DNA from: Syntrophobacterales bacterium
GTDB lineage: Bacteria > Desulfobacterota > Syntrophia > Syntrophales > UBA2210
DNA length: 36,239 bases
Assembly: GCA_021163105.1 (NCBI GenBank)
Contig: JAGGXJ010000128.1
Location: 1 to 36,239 of the forward strand
Direction of reading: 5' to 3'
Positions 22,531 through 29,975 of this stretch are shown here, piece after piece. Below the pieces are notes generated by a model. It saw nothing but the letters and a program-made list of their open reading frames with translations, had not been told where the DNA came from and searched no databases. Position numbers and translations under genes: made by a program. The first letter of the stretch is position 1, and the number at the start of each line of letters is the position of its first letter.

Positions 22531-24345
22531 TTAAAAATAATACAGCATGGAAAGATAATCGTTCGCATTCTCGCCATCCTCCTGGAGCCTTTTAAAATAA
22601 TCATAAATGGATACATCCGTATAGAGGTAGTCCTTGGCTGTTGTAAGTTTTGTCTCCCATGAATAGAATCTGTATACCCTCCGGCCATCGGGCAGTATCA
22701 TTACGACTTCATGATCCTGCCACGCCCTCAGATGTGATTTTCCCAGCCTCGGCACATTGAAGACCGGTTCATCTGTTCTGACAAGACCGGGCAGAAGCCT
22801 TCCCTCCTCCTTGTTTTCCTGTAATATTCTTGCTATGGGAACCCTGAAATCCACGGTTTCATCCTTACCCTGACAGTTAAATGTATAATAGGGATCAATG
22901 CCGCAGACCTTGAGCGTCTTCCGCAGGAAGGCCGTTTCAAATTTTCTGCTGTTGTAATAGGTAAAGACCTGCTGATTATAGACATTGATTCCCAGTTTTC
23001 TTATCTTTTTCACGGCATCCAGGACTTCTGGACATATTTCGGTGGGGTGTTCGATATGTGTAACGAGAGCGATTTCTCTTTTTCCCCACTCGTGGTATTT
23101 CTCAAGGATTTTAAGCAGGCCGTTATCTATTCTCTGGGGCAGAGTTACAAGCGTTCTGGTCCCGATTCTTATCCTGTCTATATGGTCTATCGCCGCGAAT
23201 TCTCCTATCAGCCAGTCAAGATACTTGTTGTTGAGTGTAAAAGGGTCTCCACCGGTTATCAGAATTTCTGAGAGGTTCTTATCCTCTTTGGCCCAGTTTA
23301 TCATTTCTTCCACCTTTTCCCTGGGCATCATGGGATTGTCGTCAATATTTGTTATCTCCCAGTTTCTCTGGCAATAAACACATATCTGCGGGCATGAATT
23401 GAACGGTTTCACAATAATAATCTGAGGATACCTGCGCGTGACTCCATCTATGGGACTCGTCGCATGTTCACCCATGAAATCCATGTCTCTTCCCTCCCCC
23501 TGATTTGCGAGGACATTGGCGCAATACCTGGGGCTCTGGATAACCTGCGCGCGAACAGCGCGATCATGTAAAGTCATTCCGCCTTCATTAAAAAGGGACA
23601 GGTAATGAGGCGTTATTTCGAAAGGAATGTGATTTTCGGTTGCCAGCCTTAACCCTTTCATTTCATCATCATTCAGTTTGACAAGAGCAGACAGTGTCTC
23701 AATGTCTTTGATGATATGTTTCATATGCCAGAGGTAATTCCCCCAGTCTTTTTCTCCGGCCCCGAAATAGCTCAGTATCTTATCTTTCAGTCTCTTTCTC
23801 TTTCTTACCAGCTTAGGATCCAGCCCTGTTTTATATCTTTTGAAATATCTTCTTATCATCGCTCCGTAATCATCCAGCTGGTCAGATCGTTCAATGGCGG
23901 CGGCTCTTCCCTCTTTCTGCCTCAGCAGCTCGTGGTTTTGAGAATGTTTTCCATATTTCCCCCTGATACCCTCCAGCAAGGCAACGTATTCCATCAAAAA
24001 ACTTTCACTTACCTTTTCAAGGGCTTCTTCCTCATTATTTGCAAGGTCATACAAAAGTTCCAGAGGCGAGGCCTGTGTCAGATGTTCATTTTCTGTCCGC
24101 ATTGTATTTGCGAGCACCCGGATACATTCCCTGGCATTTCTTCTCTCTACAACATTCAAATCCGCAAAGAGTGTGTCGGCCTTCATGTTGTACAGATCTC
24201 TTCCGAAACGATCAAGGTAATCGAAAAACACGTACCGTGCTTCTTCCACATGTCTGGCATTGCGAAGAATATCCTTGAATTTGGGCTCAGCCTTCCATAT
24301 CCTTTCGAGAAGCTCTTCCCTTGACAAATCAATCAATCTTTTCAT
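22531..24345 (-). CDS. KamA-family radical SAM protein (lysine 2,3-aminomutase-like)
   Basis: At 604 residues, this is about 190 longer than lysine 2,3-aminomutase because of a helical N-terminal extension (roughly 1-195). The aminomutase-like part starts at DWGNYLWHMKHII near 200. The radical SAM cluster motif is CPQICVYC (Cys318, 322, 325). RLGKSHL carries Lys536, 45 residues after Cys491, the same spacing as between Cys292 and PLP-binding Lys337 of clostridial lysine aminomutase. The substrate-binding aspartates of that enzyme (Asp293, Asp330) are replaced by Gln492 and Phe/Asn529-530, so lysine is unlikely to be the substrate. GAGG lies 7 nt before the ATG. It lies downstream of an amine dehydrogenase gene, with a mobile repeat in between. 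Confidence 0.85.
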   Translation of the reverse strand: MKRLIDLSREELLERIWKAEPKFKDILRNARHVEEARYVFFDYLDRFGRDLYNMKADTLFADLNVVERRNARECIRVLANTMRTENEHLTQASPLELLYDLANNEEEALEKVSESFLMEYVALLEGIRGKYGKHSQNHELLRQKEGRAAAIERSDQLDDYGAMIRRYFKRYKTGLDPKLVRKRKRLKDKILSYFGAGEKDWGNYLWHMKHIIKDIETLSALVKLNDDEMKGLRLATENHIPFEITPHYLSLFNEGGMTLHDRAVRAQVIQSPRYCANVLANQGEGRDMDFMGEHATSPIDGVTRRYPQIIIVKPFNSCPQICVYCQRNWEITNIDDNPMMPREKVEEMINWAKEDKNLSEILITGGDPFTLNNKYLDWLIGEFAAIDHIDRIRIGTRTLVTLPQRIDNGLLKILEKYHEWGKREIALVTHIEHPTEICPEVLDAVKKIRKLGINVYNQQVFTYYNSRKFETAFLRKTLKVCGIDPYYTFNCQGKDETVDFRVPIARILQENKEEGRLLPGLVRTDEPVFNVPRLGKSHLRAWQDHEVVMILPDGRRVYRFYSWETKLTTAKDYLYTDVSIYDYFKRLQEDGENANDYLSMLYYF

Positions 24346-24641
24346 AAGATCGCCTCACTTGATGTTTTGTAACCGTTCACGGTTTATAGTTGTCAGTTTA
24401 CGGTTGAAAAAACAGAGAATTGAAATCAACATCCAAAATACTTCGATCGTTGCATACTTGACAAACTCGTAAGAAGTCAAATTCAGATGATATGTCATTT
24501 CGACCGTAGGGAGAAATCTTATCTTTTCAATGGGTTGCGAAATAAAGATTTCTCGTTTCACTCGAAATGACAAGCCAAGGGGACTTTTTACAAATGCTTC
24601 ATACTTTATTGGAAAACTGTGAACAGTTACGATGTTTTTAC
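24346..24641. other. Gap between amine dehydrogenase and KamA-like genes, mostly filled by a mobile repeat
   Basis: The 296-bp gap contains repeat copy 2 (24464-24597) and AT-rich sequence. No gene is supported; the small ORFs lie in the repeat. Confidence 0.6.
24464..24597. repeat. MITE-like palindromic repeat, copy 2
   Basis: The inner arms begin TGTCATTTCGACCG and end with CACTCGAAATGACA, with AGAAATCTT and AAGATTTCT facing each other. The outer ends ACTCGTAAGAAGTC and GACTTTTTACAAATG are imperfect inverted repeats. Relative to copy 3, the two non-identical arms (ACCGTAGGG versus GTTTCACT) are swapped, meaning the core is in opposite orientation. Confidence 0.75.
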
Positions 24642-25640
24642 CTACCAGATTGTTACTATGGGCAGGTCACGCATTGTGACCAGACCGGGCAGCGCCTCAA
24701 ATACACGGCGCACGGCATTGACCGCGATAGCTACCGTCGCGATGTCGCCATTGGTGCCTTTCAACCTGACCTCCAGATCAGGTTTCCCGGTAATCAGGAT
24801 GGTGTCTCCATCCTCTTTTTCATCCAGGGCGGCTATGAAGGTAAGGGTCATAAATTCGCCTTTACCGGTATAGCCACGGGCTACCTGCTTAAGGCCCCTC
24901 ACATGGCCGGGTTGTACCTCAAAGTAATCGGTTTTGACTGGTGAATCGGCTACTACCGGCTCGACGCCGGATTCGTATTTTACAAAATCTTTGCCTAATG
25001 TGGAAAAGACCATTCCCATTGATTCCGGAAGTCCGACATGTCCCATGCGACCCGTTTCCATCTTTGCCTTAAACTCTTCCACCGTCATTCCTGAACCTAT
25101 CTTTGCCTGAAAAGGTCCGCGTCTCAATGAGGCATTCATGAGACGTGTAACATCAATGCGGTCTACCCGCTGACAGATAGCCGTAAGATTAAGGGGCAGT
25201 GAATCCATAAGAAAGCCTGGATTGACGCCTGTGCCCAATACGGTTTTGCCTTCATGTCTTGCGGCGGCGTCTATCCTGGCGGCGGCATCCGGGTGTGCCA
25301 GCCAGGGAAACGAAAGTTCCTCGGATGTTGAGACAATATCCAGTCCGGCTTTCAGAATTTCCATAATCTGAGTCTCAAAAAGATCGAAGAAAGATCCGGT
25401 GGTGTGAAGCACCACATCCGCCGCTGTTCTCTCCAGCACCCGGGACAGGTCTTTCACTACAGGAAACCCCGCAGGGCTGCCGAGACCGATTACCTCGCCG
25501 ACATCCATGCCTGTTTTTGCCGGGTCAATATCCACCCCGCCTACCAGTTCCATCCCCTCCCGTTCCATAATATGGCGTGCAGTAGCGCTTCCGATAGGTC
25601 CCAATCCATATTGCACCACCCGTATTGTTTTACCGCTCAT
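24642..25640 (-). CDS. NAD(P)H-dependent amine dehydrogenase, 2,4-diaminopentanoate-dehydrogenase-like
   Basis: This 332-residue protein has an N-terminal Rossmann motif VVQYGLGPIGSATARHIM (7-24) and the family signature GTGVNPGFLMD near 136-146, which I associate with the Ord (2,4-diaminopentanoate dehydrogenase) branch of the dihydrodipicolinate-reductase-like fold. Family members oxidatively deaminate diamino acids, but many are uncharacterised. It overlaps the TRAP permease stop by ATGA, with AAGGAG before the start, so it is translationally coupled to the transporter. Coupling to a transporter and proximity to a KamA-like aminomutase argue for degradation of an imported amino compound. 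The cofactor and substrate cannot be fixed. Confidence 0.8.
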   Translation of the reverse strand: MSGKTIRVVQYGLGPIGSATARHIMEREGMELVGGVDIDPAKTGMDVGEVIGLGSPAGFPVVKDLSRVLERTAADVVLHTTGSFFDLFETQIMEILKAGLDIVSTSEELSFPWLAHPDAAARIDAAARHEGKTVLGTGVNPGFLMDSLPLNLTAICQRVDRIDVTRLMNASLRRGPFQAKIGSGMTVEEFKAKMETGRMGHVGLPESMGMVFSTLGKDFVKYESGVEPVVADSPVKTDYFEVQPGHVRGLKQVARGYTGKGEFMTLTFIAALDEKEDGDTILITGKPDLEVRLKGTNGDIATVAIAVNAVRRVFEALPGLVTMRDLPIVTIW

Positions 25641-28363
25641 TTTGCTTCTCCTTCAGTTATTTTTTTATTTCTCATGCCTTGGACTATATAAAGAGCTGTC
25701 AATATAGCAATTCCTATAAGATCACTGTAAACCTCCGGGGAAAAAAGGCAAAGGGCCGCTACGCCTGTCAGTGCCCTTTCGAGGAGAGTTGAATTGTTTC
25801 TGAAATATCCTATCACTGTAGCACCAAGGGCCACGACGCCCATCATCAGCGTTATAAATATATGCGCGAACCTGAGATAATCAAATGAAGCTTCAGGATC
25901 GAGAAGCGTCGGCAGCCACAGGATTATAGGAGCGGACACAATAATAAAGGGAACAATAAACCCCGCGGAAGCCAGACCGAAGGCGGTAAGGCCCGTCTTG
26001 AACGGATTGGCGCCGGAAATCCCTGACGCCGCATAGGCAGCAAGGGCGACGGGTGGAGTTACATCGGCGAGGACGGCGTAAAACAACACAAACATGTGAG
26101 ATACCAGGGGGTGAATGCCCCATTGCATGAGCGCCGGAGCGGCTATCATAGACGCTATGATATACTGAGCCGTCGTGGGAATTCCCATGCCGAGGATAAA
26201 ACATGCCACGGCGGTAAGCACGAGAGTAAAGAACAGTGCGACAGAGTTCGCGCTCAGGAGATGGAGTATGTCAAGGTTCATAGCAACAGACGTTATCACT
26301 TGGGCAAGCTCAATAACCGCGGCCGCAAACTTGAGCCCCAGGCCGGTAAGGGTTGTCGCTCCCACTATAAAGCCTATGCAGGCAACCGCGGCTCCGATGG
26401 CGAGGGCATTTTTTGTTCCCAGCTCCAGGGTTTCCATTATATCCGGTATTCTCATTTTACTTTCCCTGTAACGGGTTCCCATCGCGATAACAGTTATTAT
26501 TGCCCAGAAGGAACATAGAGATGGCTCCAGCCCCCATGCAAGCAACACCACAAGAATAGAGGCAGGCAATAAACCCCAAAGCCAGGAAGACCTGTCAGTT
26601 TTCTTGAAGGCATAGATAAATCCGGCGACAAGCAGGGCAACCCATACGATCGAAAAGAGGGAAAAATGATCCAGGGGATTCGCCCTGACCAGGACAGATG
26701 GAATTGCCAGGAAGATCGTGATCAGCAGAGGATATGTCTTCCTGTGTATCTGGCCTGTAGCGACGGAAAAGAAGATTCCCCAGAAGGCCGCCAGAAAAGG
26801 GCTGCTTCCCGAGATCAGGAGATATATAATAATGACGAGGGGTGTCAACAGCAGCCACCCATCCTTTATTACCTTCCACAGGTTAGGCAGCGTTTCACGA
26901 GGGAGTCCCAGCAGGCCCTGTTTTTTGGCTTCCAGATGCACCATGGTGCCCACCGCAAAGAAATAGAGTATGGCGGGAACAACAGCGCACGCGGCAATCT
27001 TGATGTATGGTATGCCTAAAAATTCCGCCATGATAAATGCCGCAGCACCCATAATAGGAGGCATCAGCTGTCCACCCGTTGATGAAGCCGCCTCGACGGC
27101 CCCGGCAAACCGGGAAGGATAACCGACACGTTTCATGAGGGGGATTGTAAACGCCCCGGTAGTGACGGTATTTGCTATGGAGCTTCCGCTTATAGAACCC
27201 ATGAAACCACTGCTTATAACCGCAACCTTGGCTGGACCGCCGGCAGACCACCCGGCAATAGCCATCGCGCAATCCATAAAAAACTGTCCCAGGCCTGTTT
27301 TGGATATAAAGATTCCGAACAGCACAAAATGGAATACAAAGGTAGCGACAACCCCGAGCGGAATGCCATATATACCCTCCGTGCCAAGATACATGTGCTC
27401 GATGATCCGCTCAATGGAATATCCCCTGTGCGCGAAAAAACTGAGTCCGGGAATATCAAGAAAATATGGACCCAGATAGCAGTTTACCAGAACAAGAAAA
27501 GCGATAATAGGAAGAGGAGGCCCTATGCTGCGTCGCGCCCCCTCCAGCACCAGCAGAATGGCAAAGGCGCCCACAACAACATCCATTTTGAGAGGCAGCC
27601 CCGCGCGTATAACCAGGCTGTTAAATTCCAGAAATATATAAACAGAGATAAAAGACGCCAAGATTACAAAAAATACATCAAAGTATGGAATATCATCCTG
27701 CTTATATGTAAACTGCCCGCCTTTTATCATCGCAAACAGCGCTCTGGCCCACTGAACGACAAAGAGCAATATCATGCTGAAAAATACACCGAACAGGAAA
27801 ACGCTCCAGAAAAAGAGGGATATGTCGGAATTGTTAAATGCTTCCCCAAGGTGCATGTACTGAAAACCGATGTGCGCGCCATAGGCCAGCACCGCGATCA
27901 TTATGGTAAATATAACAAAATCCACATATATAAAGATCCGATTCGACAGAAACTCTCTGCGCTTGAAATAAAGGATAAACAAAAACACGGCTGCCGACAG
28001 GATAAAGGTGGCATATCCTGAAAGTTCCAGAATTTCTCGAAACATGGCACCTGTAATGGCGGCGCCGATAATACCATAGATAACATCATATACAAGATCT
28101 TTTCCGGATTCCGTTTTGTCTTTTCTTATCGTATAAAGAAAAAATACAAGCGGCAGGACAAAGGCCAGATGAAATGCCCGGTGTCTCCACTCCTGAAAAA
28201 CGCCGAAGCCGGCAGTATAGATATGAAATATCGAAAGAACCTGCGTCATAAAAAAGGCAAGCTTCAGTGTAATACCCGTGAGTTTGCGGAACCGAAACTC
28301 CGGATCGTATTTGGCAATTTCTTCTATGTCTTCAGAAATGGTTACTGTTTCCTGTAGTTCCAT
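25637..28363 (-). CDS. TRAP transporter fused permease (DctQM-type, TAXI family)
   Basis: At 908 residues, this is the size of TAXI-associated permeases in which the small and large membrane subunits are fused. About 18-20 hydrophobic segments are visible. The N-terminal third corresponds to the DctQ-like part and the rest to DctM, with GSISGSSIANTVTTGAFTIPLMKR and PPIMGAAAFIMAEFLGIPY typical of the large subunit; ADVTPPVALAAYAASGIS is near the end. It uses an ion gradient to import a ligand delivered by the periplasmic protein encoded upstream. GAGG precedes the ATG, 12 bp after the DUF1850 gene. Confidence 0.93.
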   Translation of the reverse strand: MELQETVTISEDIEEIAKYDPEFRFRKLTGITLKLAFFMTQVLSIFHIYTAGFGVFQEWRHRAFHLAFVLPLVFFLYTIRKDKTESGKDLVYDVIYGIIGAAITGAMFREILELSGYATFILSAAVFLFILYFKRREFLSNRIFIYVDFVIFTIMIAVLAYGAHIGFQYMHLGEAFNNSDISLFFWSVFLFGVFFSMILLFVVQWARALFAMIKGGQFTYKQDDIPYFDVFFVILASFISVYIFLEFNSLVIRAGLPLKMDVVVGAFAILLVLEGARRSIGPPLPIIAFLVLVNCYLGPYFLDIPGLSFFAHRGYSIERIIEHMYLGTEGIYGIPLGVVATFVFHFVLFGIFISKTGLGQFFMDCAMAIAGWSAGGPAKVAVISSGFMGSISGSSIANTVTTGAFTIPLMKRVGYPSRFAGAVEAASSTGGQLMPPIMGAAAFIMAEFLGIPYIKIAACAVVPAILYFFAVGTMVHLEAKKQGLLGLPRETLPNLWKVIKDGWLLLTPLVIIIYLLISGSSPFLAAFWGIFFSVATGQIHRKTYPLLITIFLAIPSVLVRANPLDHFSLFSIVWVALLVAGFIYAFKKTDRSSWLWGLLPASILVVLLAWGLEPSLCSFWAIITVIAMGTRYRESKMRIPDIMETLELGTKNALAIGAAVACIGFIVGATTLTGLGLKFAAAVIELAQVITSVAMNLDILHLLSANSVALFFTLVLTAVACFILGMGIPTTAQYIIASMIAAPALMQWGIHPLVSHMFVLFYAVLADVTPPVALAAYAASGISGANPFKTGLTAFGLASAGFIVPFIIVSAPIILWLPTLLDPEASFDYLRFAHIFITLMMGVVALGATVIGYFRNNSTLLERALTGVAALCLFSPEVYSDLIGIAILTALYIVQGMRNKKITEGEAK

Positions 28364-28375
28364 ATAAAAGGCCTC

Positions 28376-28882
28376 TTACACAAAAATTTTTGCCTTCAAA
28401 TACAAAAATTCGAGAAATGGCAATTTTTCTACGGCCACCCTCAGGAGAGTGTCTCCCGCCAGAGAGGGGAGTTCCAGTACTTCACCATCTCCCAGCGTCA
28501 GGGTGTTGTCATATTTTTTATTGACCCACAGATTGAGCTCCGGCAATACCCTGTGCATGTTGGAGATACGCAGGTGGGTTCCAACATTGTAAAATTTTTC
28601 ATCTCCGGAGAGGGTGGTTGGAAGGCCGGTATTACAGGAAGAAAAAGTTGTTTCATAAAGCACGACTCGGAAGTTTTTGTCTATCTTGAAATATTCCCGG
28701 ACAGGGCTTAGTTCAACCGAATGAATATATTCCGTTGAAAATCTGTAATCCGGCCGGATTATCTGAATAAAGACCGTTCGGTTTTTCCTTGCCGCCTCTA
28801 TCCTCAATATATGACAGGGAATAAGAGAAAAGAAAAAGAGGGCGGCAATAGAAGAGAGGATGATTATTCTTTTCTTGTCCAT
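28376..28882 (-). CDS. DUF1850-domain protein
   Basis: This 168-residue protein has an N-terminal membrane anchor (IIILSSIAALFFFSLIP, residues 6-22) and an extracytoplasmic domain with STEYIHSVELSPVREYFKI. That HSVE-PVxE pattern is typical of DUF1850 proteins encoded beside TAXI TRAP permeases. The function is unknown; assistance to the transporter is inferred from constant linkage. The start is unusual: the SD AAGGAGG lies 34 nt upstream, but a perfect 26-nt hairpin between them would reduce the effective spacing to 8 nt (see the separate entry). Confidence 0.8.
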   Translation of the reverse strand: MDKKRIIILSSIAALFFFSLIPCHILRIEAARKNRTVFIQIIRPDYRFSTEYIHSVELSPVREYFKIDKNFRVVLYETTFSSCNTGLPTTLSGDEKFYNVGTHLRISNMHRVLPELNLWVNKKYDNTLTLGDGEVLELPSLAGDTLLRVAVEKLPFLEFLYLKAKIFV

Positions 28883-28923
28883 AAATACCGGGCACCGGAA
28901 AACCGGTGCCCGGATACCTCCTT
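28883..28923 (-). promoter_or_regulatory. Shine-Dalgarno separated from the AUG by a perfect hairpin
   Basis: On the minus strand, reading toward the gene: AAGGAGG (28923-28917), TAT, the stem CCGGGCACCGG-TTTT-CCGGTGCCCGG (28913-28888), TATTT, then ATG of the DUF1850 gene. The hairpin has 11 perfect GC-rich pairs. There is no T-run, so it is unlikely to terminate. Folded, it leaves 8 nt between SD and AUG. It may also stabilise the upstream binding-protein message against 3' exonucleases. Confidence 0.7.
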
Positions 28924-28949
28924 AACAAACTTAACAAATCAACCCTTTG

Positions 28950-29975
28950 CTATTTAACCAGCCCCTTCTCCCTGTAAAATTTAGCTGCGCCCGGATGAAG
29001 GGGAATCGCCACGCCGTCAAGCGCCGTGGCGAGGGTAACATCTCTACCCTTGGCATGGGCCTTCGCCATAATTTCAGCTCCACTCGGCGCCGCGGCAGCC
29101 TTGCCGCCCTTTTTACGCAGGACAAAAGATCCCTTGTCCCACAGCGCCTTTGTAAGATTGTAAACCATCTCTTCCGGAACGGCAGCATCAACAACCCACT
29201 GAGCCATTGTGGTGATGGTGGGAGTATCTGTATCCACCCCTTTGTAAGTGCCCGCAGGGATAACAACCTTAGCGTAGAAGGGATGCGCTTTGATGATCTT
29301 TGCTATGGTTTTGTCATCCAGCGGAACAAGTGTGATATCTGATGTTGTGGCCAGCTCTGTAACGGCTGCTGTGGGCCATCCCGCTGTAATGAATGCTACA
29401 TCGGCCTGCCTGTCTTTCAGCCTCTGGGTGGCGCCGGAAAAGCTGAGCCAGTCCACACCGGCGAAATCATCATAGGTAAGACCGAGACCCGCGAGAGTCG
29501 CCAGGCAGTCCACTTCGGTTCCACTTCCCCTGTCACCCGGGACCAGCTTCTTTCCCTTCAGATCCCCCCCGCTTTTTATACCGGCCCCCTCTCTGGCAAT
29601 GATCTGGATTGTCTCAGGGTAAAGAGAGGCGATGGCCCTCAGGTTTTTAACGGGTTTTCCATCAAATTGCTCGACCCCGTTATACGCATAGTAAGCAACA
29701 TTGTTCTGTACGAACCCCGATTCGATTTGGTGTGTCTTTATGAGGTTGCAATTCGCAACAGATGCGTTACCCGACTGTGCGGTAACAATAACATTGGGAA
29801 GTTTGTTGGACAGTGCCTGTGCCAGGACTCCTCCCAGGGGATAGTAAGTGCCACCCGTGCCACCTGTGGCAATCGCGAAGAAACTTTTCTTCGCCGCAAA
29901 CGACGGGCTGATAAAGACCATTGACAAAGCCACAATCAGCACAACAAACAGTACAAGGTTTCTCTTCTTAAACAT
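28950..29975 (-). CDS. TAXI-family TRAP transporter substrate-binding protein
   Basis: This 341-residue periplasmic protein has a signal peptide (MFKKRNL, hydrophobic LVLFVVLIVALSMVFI, cleavage after PSFA). The mature part begins with FFAIATGGTGGTYYPLGG, the ligand-pocket signature of TAXI proteins, and later has ARGSG-like GDRGSGTEVD. It would deliver a small ligand, often a dicarboxylate or amino acid such as glutamate, to the fused permease. I start at 29975 because AAGGAGAGG sits 6 nt upstream; the track start at 30032 would destroy the signal peptide. It has its own promoter just upstream and is the first gene of the transporter operon. Confidence 0.92.
   Translation of the reverse strand: MFKKRNLVLFVVLIVALSMVFISPSFAAKKSFFAIATGGTGGTYYPLGGVLAQALSNKLPNVIVTAQSGNASVANCNLIKTHQIESGFVQNNVAYYAYNGVEQFDGKPVKNLRAIASLYPETIQIIAREGAGIKSGGDLKGKKLVPGDRGSGTEVDCLATLAGLGLTYDDFAGVDWLSFSGATQRLKDRQADVAFITAGWPTAAVTELATTSDITLVPLDDKTIAKIIKAHPFYAKVVIPAGTYKGVDTDTPTITTMAQWVVDAAVPEEMVYNLTKALWDKGSFVLRKKGGKAAAAPSGAEIMAKAHAKGRDVTLATALDGVAIPLHPGAAKFYREKGLVK

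Follow-up and report, generated by a model that had tools for sequence, protein, structure and literature searches.

Spacer hairpins that enable a distant Shine-Dalgarno sequence (SD) to work are known from a handful of cases, chiefly two genes of phage T4 and E. coli thrS. In T4 genes 38 and 25 the SD lies too far from the AUG, and an intervening hairpin cuts the spacing from 22 to 5 nt and from 27 to 11 nt, an arrangement that is conserved in relatives (PMC3014915). E. coli thrS has a split ribosome-binding site (RBS), in which ribosome binding accommodates a hairpin that stays folded (PMC3936740). Both precedents show that ribosomes can bridge a folded hairpin. Hairpins of another kind have been described in Clostridia: behind the solute-binding protein (SBP) genes of ABC importers they stop 21-96 % of transcripts, and they combine weak U-tracts with long GC stems (PMC9045158). 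In the text searched of that paper neither ribosome nor Shine-Dalgarno nor translation appears as a term. DUF1850, the protein family concerned here, is not named in any paper of the literature searched.

The junction under study is located on the minus strand of the window (the whole stretch of 36,239 nt that was analysed), between a TAXI-type solute-binding protein gene and a DUF1850 gene. Its features, and those of the surrounding genes, are as follows:

28950..29975, minus strand: TAXI-type solute-binding protein gene (NMT1_3), the 5' gene of the junction (Pfam PF16868, E 2.8e-85)
28917..28923, minus strand: Shine-Dalgarno AAGGAGG at the 5' foot of the hairpin (sequence; anti-SD duplex -11.9 kcal/mol)
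28914..28916, minus strand: UAU between SD and stem (sequence)
28903..28913, minus strand: 5' arm of the stem, CCGGGCACCGG (sequence and folding; compensatory changes)
28899..28902, minus strand: UUUU loop (sequence; length and sequence vary in relatives)
28888..28898, minus strand: 3' arm of the stem, CCGGUGCCCGG (sequence and folding)
28883..28887, minus strand: UAUUU, spacer from stem to AUG (equivalent to the U-tract of relatives, decayed in the window's genus)
28880..28882, minus strand: AUG start of DUF1850 (only in-frame start before codon 26; start and N-terminus conserved)
28376..28882, minus strand: DUF1850 gene, 168 aa, with a hydrophobic segment at the N-terminus (Pfam PF08905, E 2.4e-15)
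25637..28363, minus strand: TRAP permease gene (Pfam PF06808, E 1.3e-87)

The genes of PF16868, PF08905 and PF06808 follow one another, which places the element within a TRAP transporter operon, as had been proposed from the sequence. The likely start of the TAXI gene is the ATG at 29975-29973, preceded by AAAGGAGAGGCATT. Only 12 nt separate the DUF1850 stop from the permease ATG, and an AGAGG overlaps this stop. In the region 22531-25640 of the window, the end of the permease gene is overlapped by a 2,4-diaminopentanoate dehydrogenase-like gene (PF19328), and past it lies a gene that, judged by eye, resembles lysine 2,3-aminomutase. A possible substrate of the transporter is an amino acid or an amino acid-derived product.

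The original prediction described an AAGGAGG 34 nt from the AUG, 26 nt of which are occupied by a perfect 11-bp stem with a TTTT loop, leaving an effective spacing of 8 nt (i.e. the SD-to-AUG distance with the stem taken out). These figures were found to be exact on re-reading. The hairpin has a folding energy of -25.0 kcal/mol, and the 121-nt region analysed has a folding energy z of -4.98 relative to shuffled sequences, none of 200 shuffles being as good. The inverted repeat occurs a single time in the 2.0-Mb genome with up to 3 mismatches allowed, which rules out a repeat element. A known structured RNA family was also rejected, since no Rfam family exceeded its gathering score (the only match, a chance one, was to U7 with 11.9 bits vs 34). 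When the region from -60 to +30 is folded, the SD averages only 28 % unpaired, in part owing to weak G-U pairs with the U-tract. This partial masking counts against bridging; the modelled weak pairing could tune the initiation rate. Relative to one related junction (L003), about 9 nt are duplicated in tandem in the window (TTGTTAAGT/TTGTTAAGG, 28917-28941) just 5' of the SD, which leaves the SD-stem-AUG unit unaffected.

The start codon was examined as well. The DUF1850 frame is closed upstream by a TAA overlapping the SD (TAAGGAGG), the next in-frame start after the ATG is a TTG at codon 26, and the N-terminus is conserved among orthologs. A different true start with its own SD, which the original prediction had named as evidence that would speak against a bridged site, was rejected, since none was found before codon 26. 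In the window the best anti-SD duplex near the AUG reaches -3.0 kcal/mol, vs -11.9 kcal/mol at the foot of the hairpin. The SD is thus too distant for linear initiation, at 34 nt here and 31-42 nt in relatives, with no nearer SD. GGAGG-ATG gaps in intact leaders of the same genome range from 2 to 15 nt, usually 4-11 nt, with a mode of 7, and removal of the hairpin brings the spacing (8 nt) within this normal range. A survey of SD-hairpin-start layouts, with loose criteria and covering 467 kb of the 2.0-Mb genome, found 16 other starts, all of which have weaker stems and resemble chance matches within reading frames. The idea of a common RBS type of this genome was rejected, as the 467 kb held no second clear case.

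A protein search of 149 related genomes gave 33 alignable orthologous TAXI/DUF1850 junctions of the order, Syntrophales. The stem is present in all 33, and an SD-like motif is found at its 5' foot in 28. The alignment reads AAGGAGG-n3-stem-U5-AUG, with the consensus AAGGAGGnAACCGGGCACCG..CGGTGCCCGGTTTTTATG and an unconserved flank and loop. Changes on both sides are seen at 7 of 12 pairs. Three of these changes (columns 23/54, CG to UA; 28/49, AU to GC; 31/46, GC to CG) are each found in at least two families of Syntrophales. In total, 39 such cells were counted vs 14.0 in shuffles, and none of 500 shuffles reached 39. Pairing is 93 % in the true register vs 30-52 % in slid controls. Comparison of related TAXI operons, the check put forward with the original prediction, therefore finds the hairpin kept with compensatory changes. 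In five junctions (L008, L012, L021, L030 and L031) the stem lacks a recognisable SD, which indicates that it can persist without bridging. One further observation concerns L027 (genome G030), where the hairpin is present and no in-frame ATG, GTG or TTG is found at the usual place behind it: a decayed gene, an assembly error and an unusual start are the alternatives.

The GGGC of the 5' arm and the GCCC of the 3' arm are invariant (33/33), i.e. four base pairs show no variation. This invariance, together with the lack of an Rfam family match, might suggest a site where a regulatory protein or an RNase controls access to the RBS; however, many terminators of the order have a G-rich 5' arm and a C-rich 3' arm, conservation does not extend to the loop and upper stem, and such a site seems hardly probable at all. 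In the 149 genomes, covariance model R1 matched 33 sites at E <= 3e-4, every one a DUF1850 junction that belongs to the training set; none at this threshold lies before another gene. The same element ahead of other genes was accordingly rejected, the 20 weaker matches inspected being mostly ordinary terminators in the ACCGGGC..GCCCGGU style. A class-wide search gave no further members.

Results concerning effective spacing show a narrow distribution: it is 5-12 nt in all 28 junctions with an SD-like motif, and exactly 8 nt in 20 of the 33. When the 21 upstream bases were shuffled in 2000 rounds, the 8-nt spacing was obtained on average in 0.88 and at most in 5 of 33 sequences, a comparison that overstates independence, the 33 sequences being related and most of f13 belonging to one genus. 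Owing to this relatedness the statistics show constraint and not independent origin. In L013 the hairpin unit is longer (34 nt vs 24-27 nt elsewhere) without any change in the 8-nt effective spacing. L025, with an SD directly adjoining the stem and a more distant AUG, also comes to 8 nt; L023 and L028 have the same layout with 10 and 11 nt. A conserved 8-nt effective spacing, like the usual GGAGG-ATG gaps of the genome and the lack of an SD at ordinary terminators (see below), is a mark expected if an SD works across a folded stem, and the comparison shows that the order has preserved SD, stem and AUG as a single unit. The idea that SD strength is traded off against U content was rejected (no correlation, Spearman -0.13, p 0.46).

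The position of the SD, between the stop of the binding-protein gene (in the window and in relatives some 60 nt ahead of the AUG) and the hairpin, would also suit re-initiation or scanning by ribosomes that finish this gene, the SD catching a sliding ribosome and the hairpin merely slowing it. A ribosome held at the SD would nevertheless face an AUG 31-42 nt further on, past a stem of -17 to -26 kcal/mol, so that bridging would be needed too, and the exact 8-nt effective spacing would otherwise be unexplained. We consider this explanation very improbable.

A second property of the hairpin, its terminator design, had been missed in the original prediction. Intrinsic terminators were scored from sequence by the d'Aubenton-Carafa criteria, with a tail cut-off nT of 2.895. 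Outside the window's genus 23 of 28 elements pass, and in most relatives the hairpin has the look of a leaky transcription terminator. Tail nT averages 3.61 in these 28 elements vs 0.61-2.47 in the window's genus (2.43 in the window itself, below the cut-off), where all five elements fail the tail criterion. Given the tails of this genus (UAUUU, UCUUU or CCUGU), bridging would be the function still clearly kept there. Ordinary terminators do not share the SD: it stands at the foot of none of 27 in relatives, which were drawn from matches to an SD-containing model, so that the bias runs against this result, and of 1 of 16 in the window's own genome, the one being this element. Non-DUF1850 terminators tallied in relatives that had not been selected were too few (n=6) to be of use.

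Hairpins after the binding-protein gene were also found in other taxa. In Bacillota they are present in 23 of the 34 junctions scanned; the hairpin (GGCATTGC..GCAATGCC-U5) lies about 27 nt past the binding-protein stop, usually within the first codons of DUF1850. Other Desulfobacterota are distributed as follows: in L233 and L234 the hairpin is within the coding start, in L232 it is upstream with room for a separate RBS, and in L225, L249 and L250 it is close to the start. In the Bacillota junctions (L105-L138) and in L233 and L234, the sequence for the DUF1850 N-terminal peptide (KALLxxNAF-like) encodes the stem. In a distant TAXI/DUF1850 pair (L040/L209, G009:C40) the two functions are unlinked: its strong terminator-like hairpin lies far upstream, and DUF1850 has an SD of its own (GAGGAG) close to the ATG. 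The scan of junctions after all TAXI genes misjudged the frame at several loci, and only its result for L209 was used. Hairpins elsewhere in Desulfobacterota and in Bacillota are thus usually not between SD and AUG: the hairpin is a wider theme, and its placement between SD and AUG at a fixed effective spacing is special to Syntrophales.

It could be argued from these results that the element is only a leaky internal terminator, or a hairpin protecting the 3' end, placed before the AUG by accident, with DUF1850 translated in some other manner. The stem-plus-U-tract design (23/28), the hairpins that follow the same binding-protein gene in other phyla and bridge no SD, the ACCGGGC..GCCCGGU style common to the order's other terminators and the comparable hairpins that terminate in Clostridia (PMC9045158) are all in agreement with it. 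It would leave unexplained why SD motifs occur at one fixed distance in 20 of 33 junctions while being absent from other terminators, and why the U-tract is lost in the window's genus with SD and stem intact; moreover, a plain terminator would be free to lie elsewhere, as it does in L209/L040 with its upstream hairpin and its own near SD. We regard this alternative as unlikely.

Since SD, hairpin and AUG stand at a fixed distance once folded, across the order, the hairpin most likely brings SD and AUG together. We favour a hairpin-accommodated RBS built on a terminator-like hairpin, with a probability of roughly three in four. The 30S subunit would pair with the SD at the 5' foot of the stem, which would stay folded and be looped out of the path of the mRNA; the AUG would then reach the P site at a normal distance, and DUF1850 would be translated without melting of the stem. 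The TRAP permease start, 12 nt past the DUF1850 stop, is probably reached through coupled translation. In most relatives the hairpin and its U-tract would terminate a fraction of the transcripts behind the binding-protein gene, so that binding protein is made in excess; in read-through transcripts the stem would stay folded, the 30S subunit would bind the SD and the AUG would be found 8 nt on. A leaky internal terminator after the binding-protein gene would in this way have become built into the RBS of DUF1850. In the window's genus the terminator role appears weakened, because the U-tract decayed with SD and stem intact.

The bridged RBS of the original prediction is thus retained and strengthened by the conserved hairpin, the covariation and the fixed effective spacing. 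Its proposal that folding switches translation on is unlikely, the stem being too stable to open readily; on the modelled energies the hairpin looks constitutive. As for the suggested effect on the ratio between binding protein and permease, the terminator-like build in relatives and the non-bridging hairpins in distant taxa make it as likely that part of any such effect is transcriptional. A tentative extension, somewhat less likely than not, gives one hairpin two opposed jobs: a leaky terminator that reduces transcription into the DUF1850-permease genes, and an SD-AUG bridge needed in the transcripts that read through, which would couple both controls and fix the ratio of binding protein to permease. 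If this were true, unfolded transcripts would be read through yet poorly translated.

Compared with T4 genes 38 and 25, the element has the same distant SD, the same bridging hairpin (34 to 8 nt here) and an arrangement kept in relatives. It differs in belonging to a chromosomal bacterial operon and in being known from sequence comparison; its stem is longer and far more GC-rich, and the hairpin resembles a terminator whose U-tract, in most relatives, continues into the AUG. As in E. coli thrS, a hairpin in a bacterial gene is predicted to be accommodated in ribosome binding, whereas the thrS leader is larger and multi-domain, and here nothing points to feedback by the gene product. The resemblance to the SBP terminators of Clostridia is in the stem-loop between the binding-protein gene and the membrane components, observed in the window as a GC stem, and in the combination of a long GC stem with a weakened U-tract; the differences are the TRAP (TAXI) operon and the location of the hairpin inside the RBS of the next gene. 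The element combines known kinds, the accommodated RBS of the T4 38/25 type and the internal SBP terminator, and is new as a combined variant. It would add a case from the chromosome, conserved throughout a bacterial order and following a measurable rule (8 nt once folded), and start-site predictors using linear SD spacing would mis-score such genes. It also suggests how a partial terminator can be placed after a binding-protein gene while the RBS of the next gene is spared.
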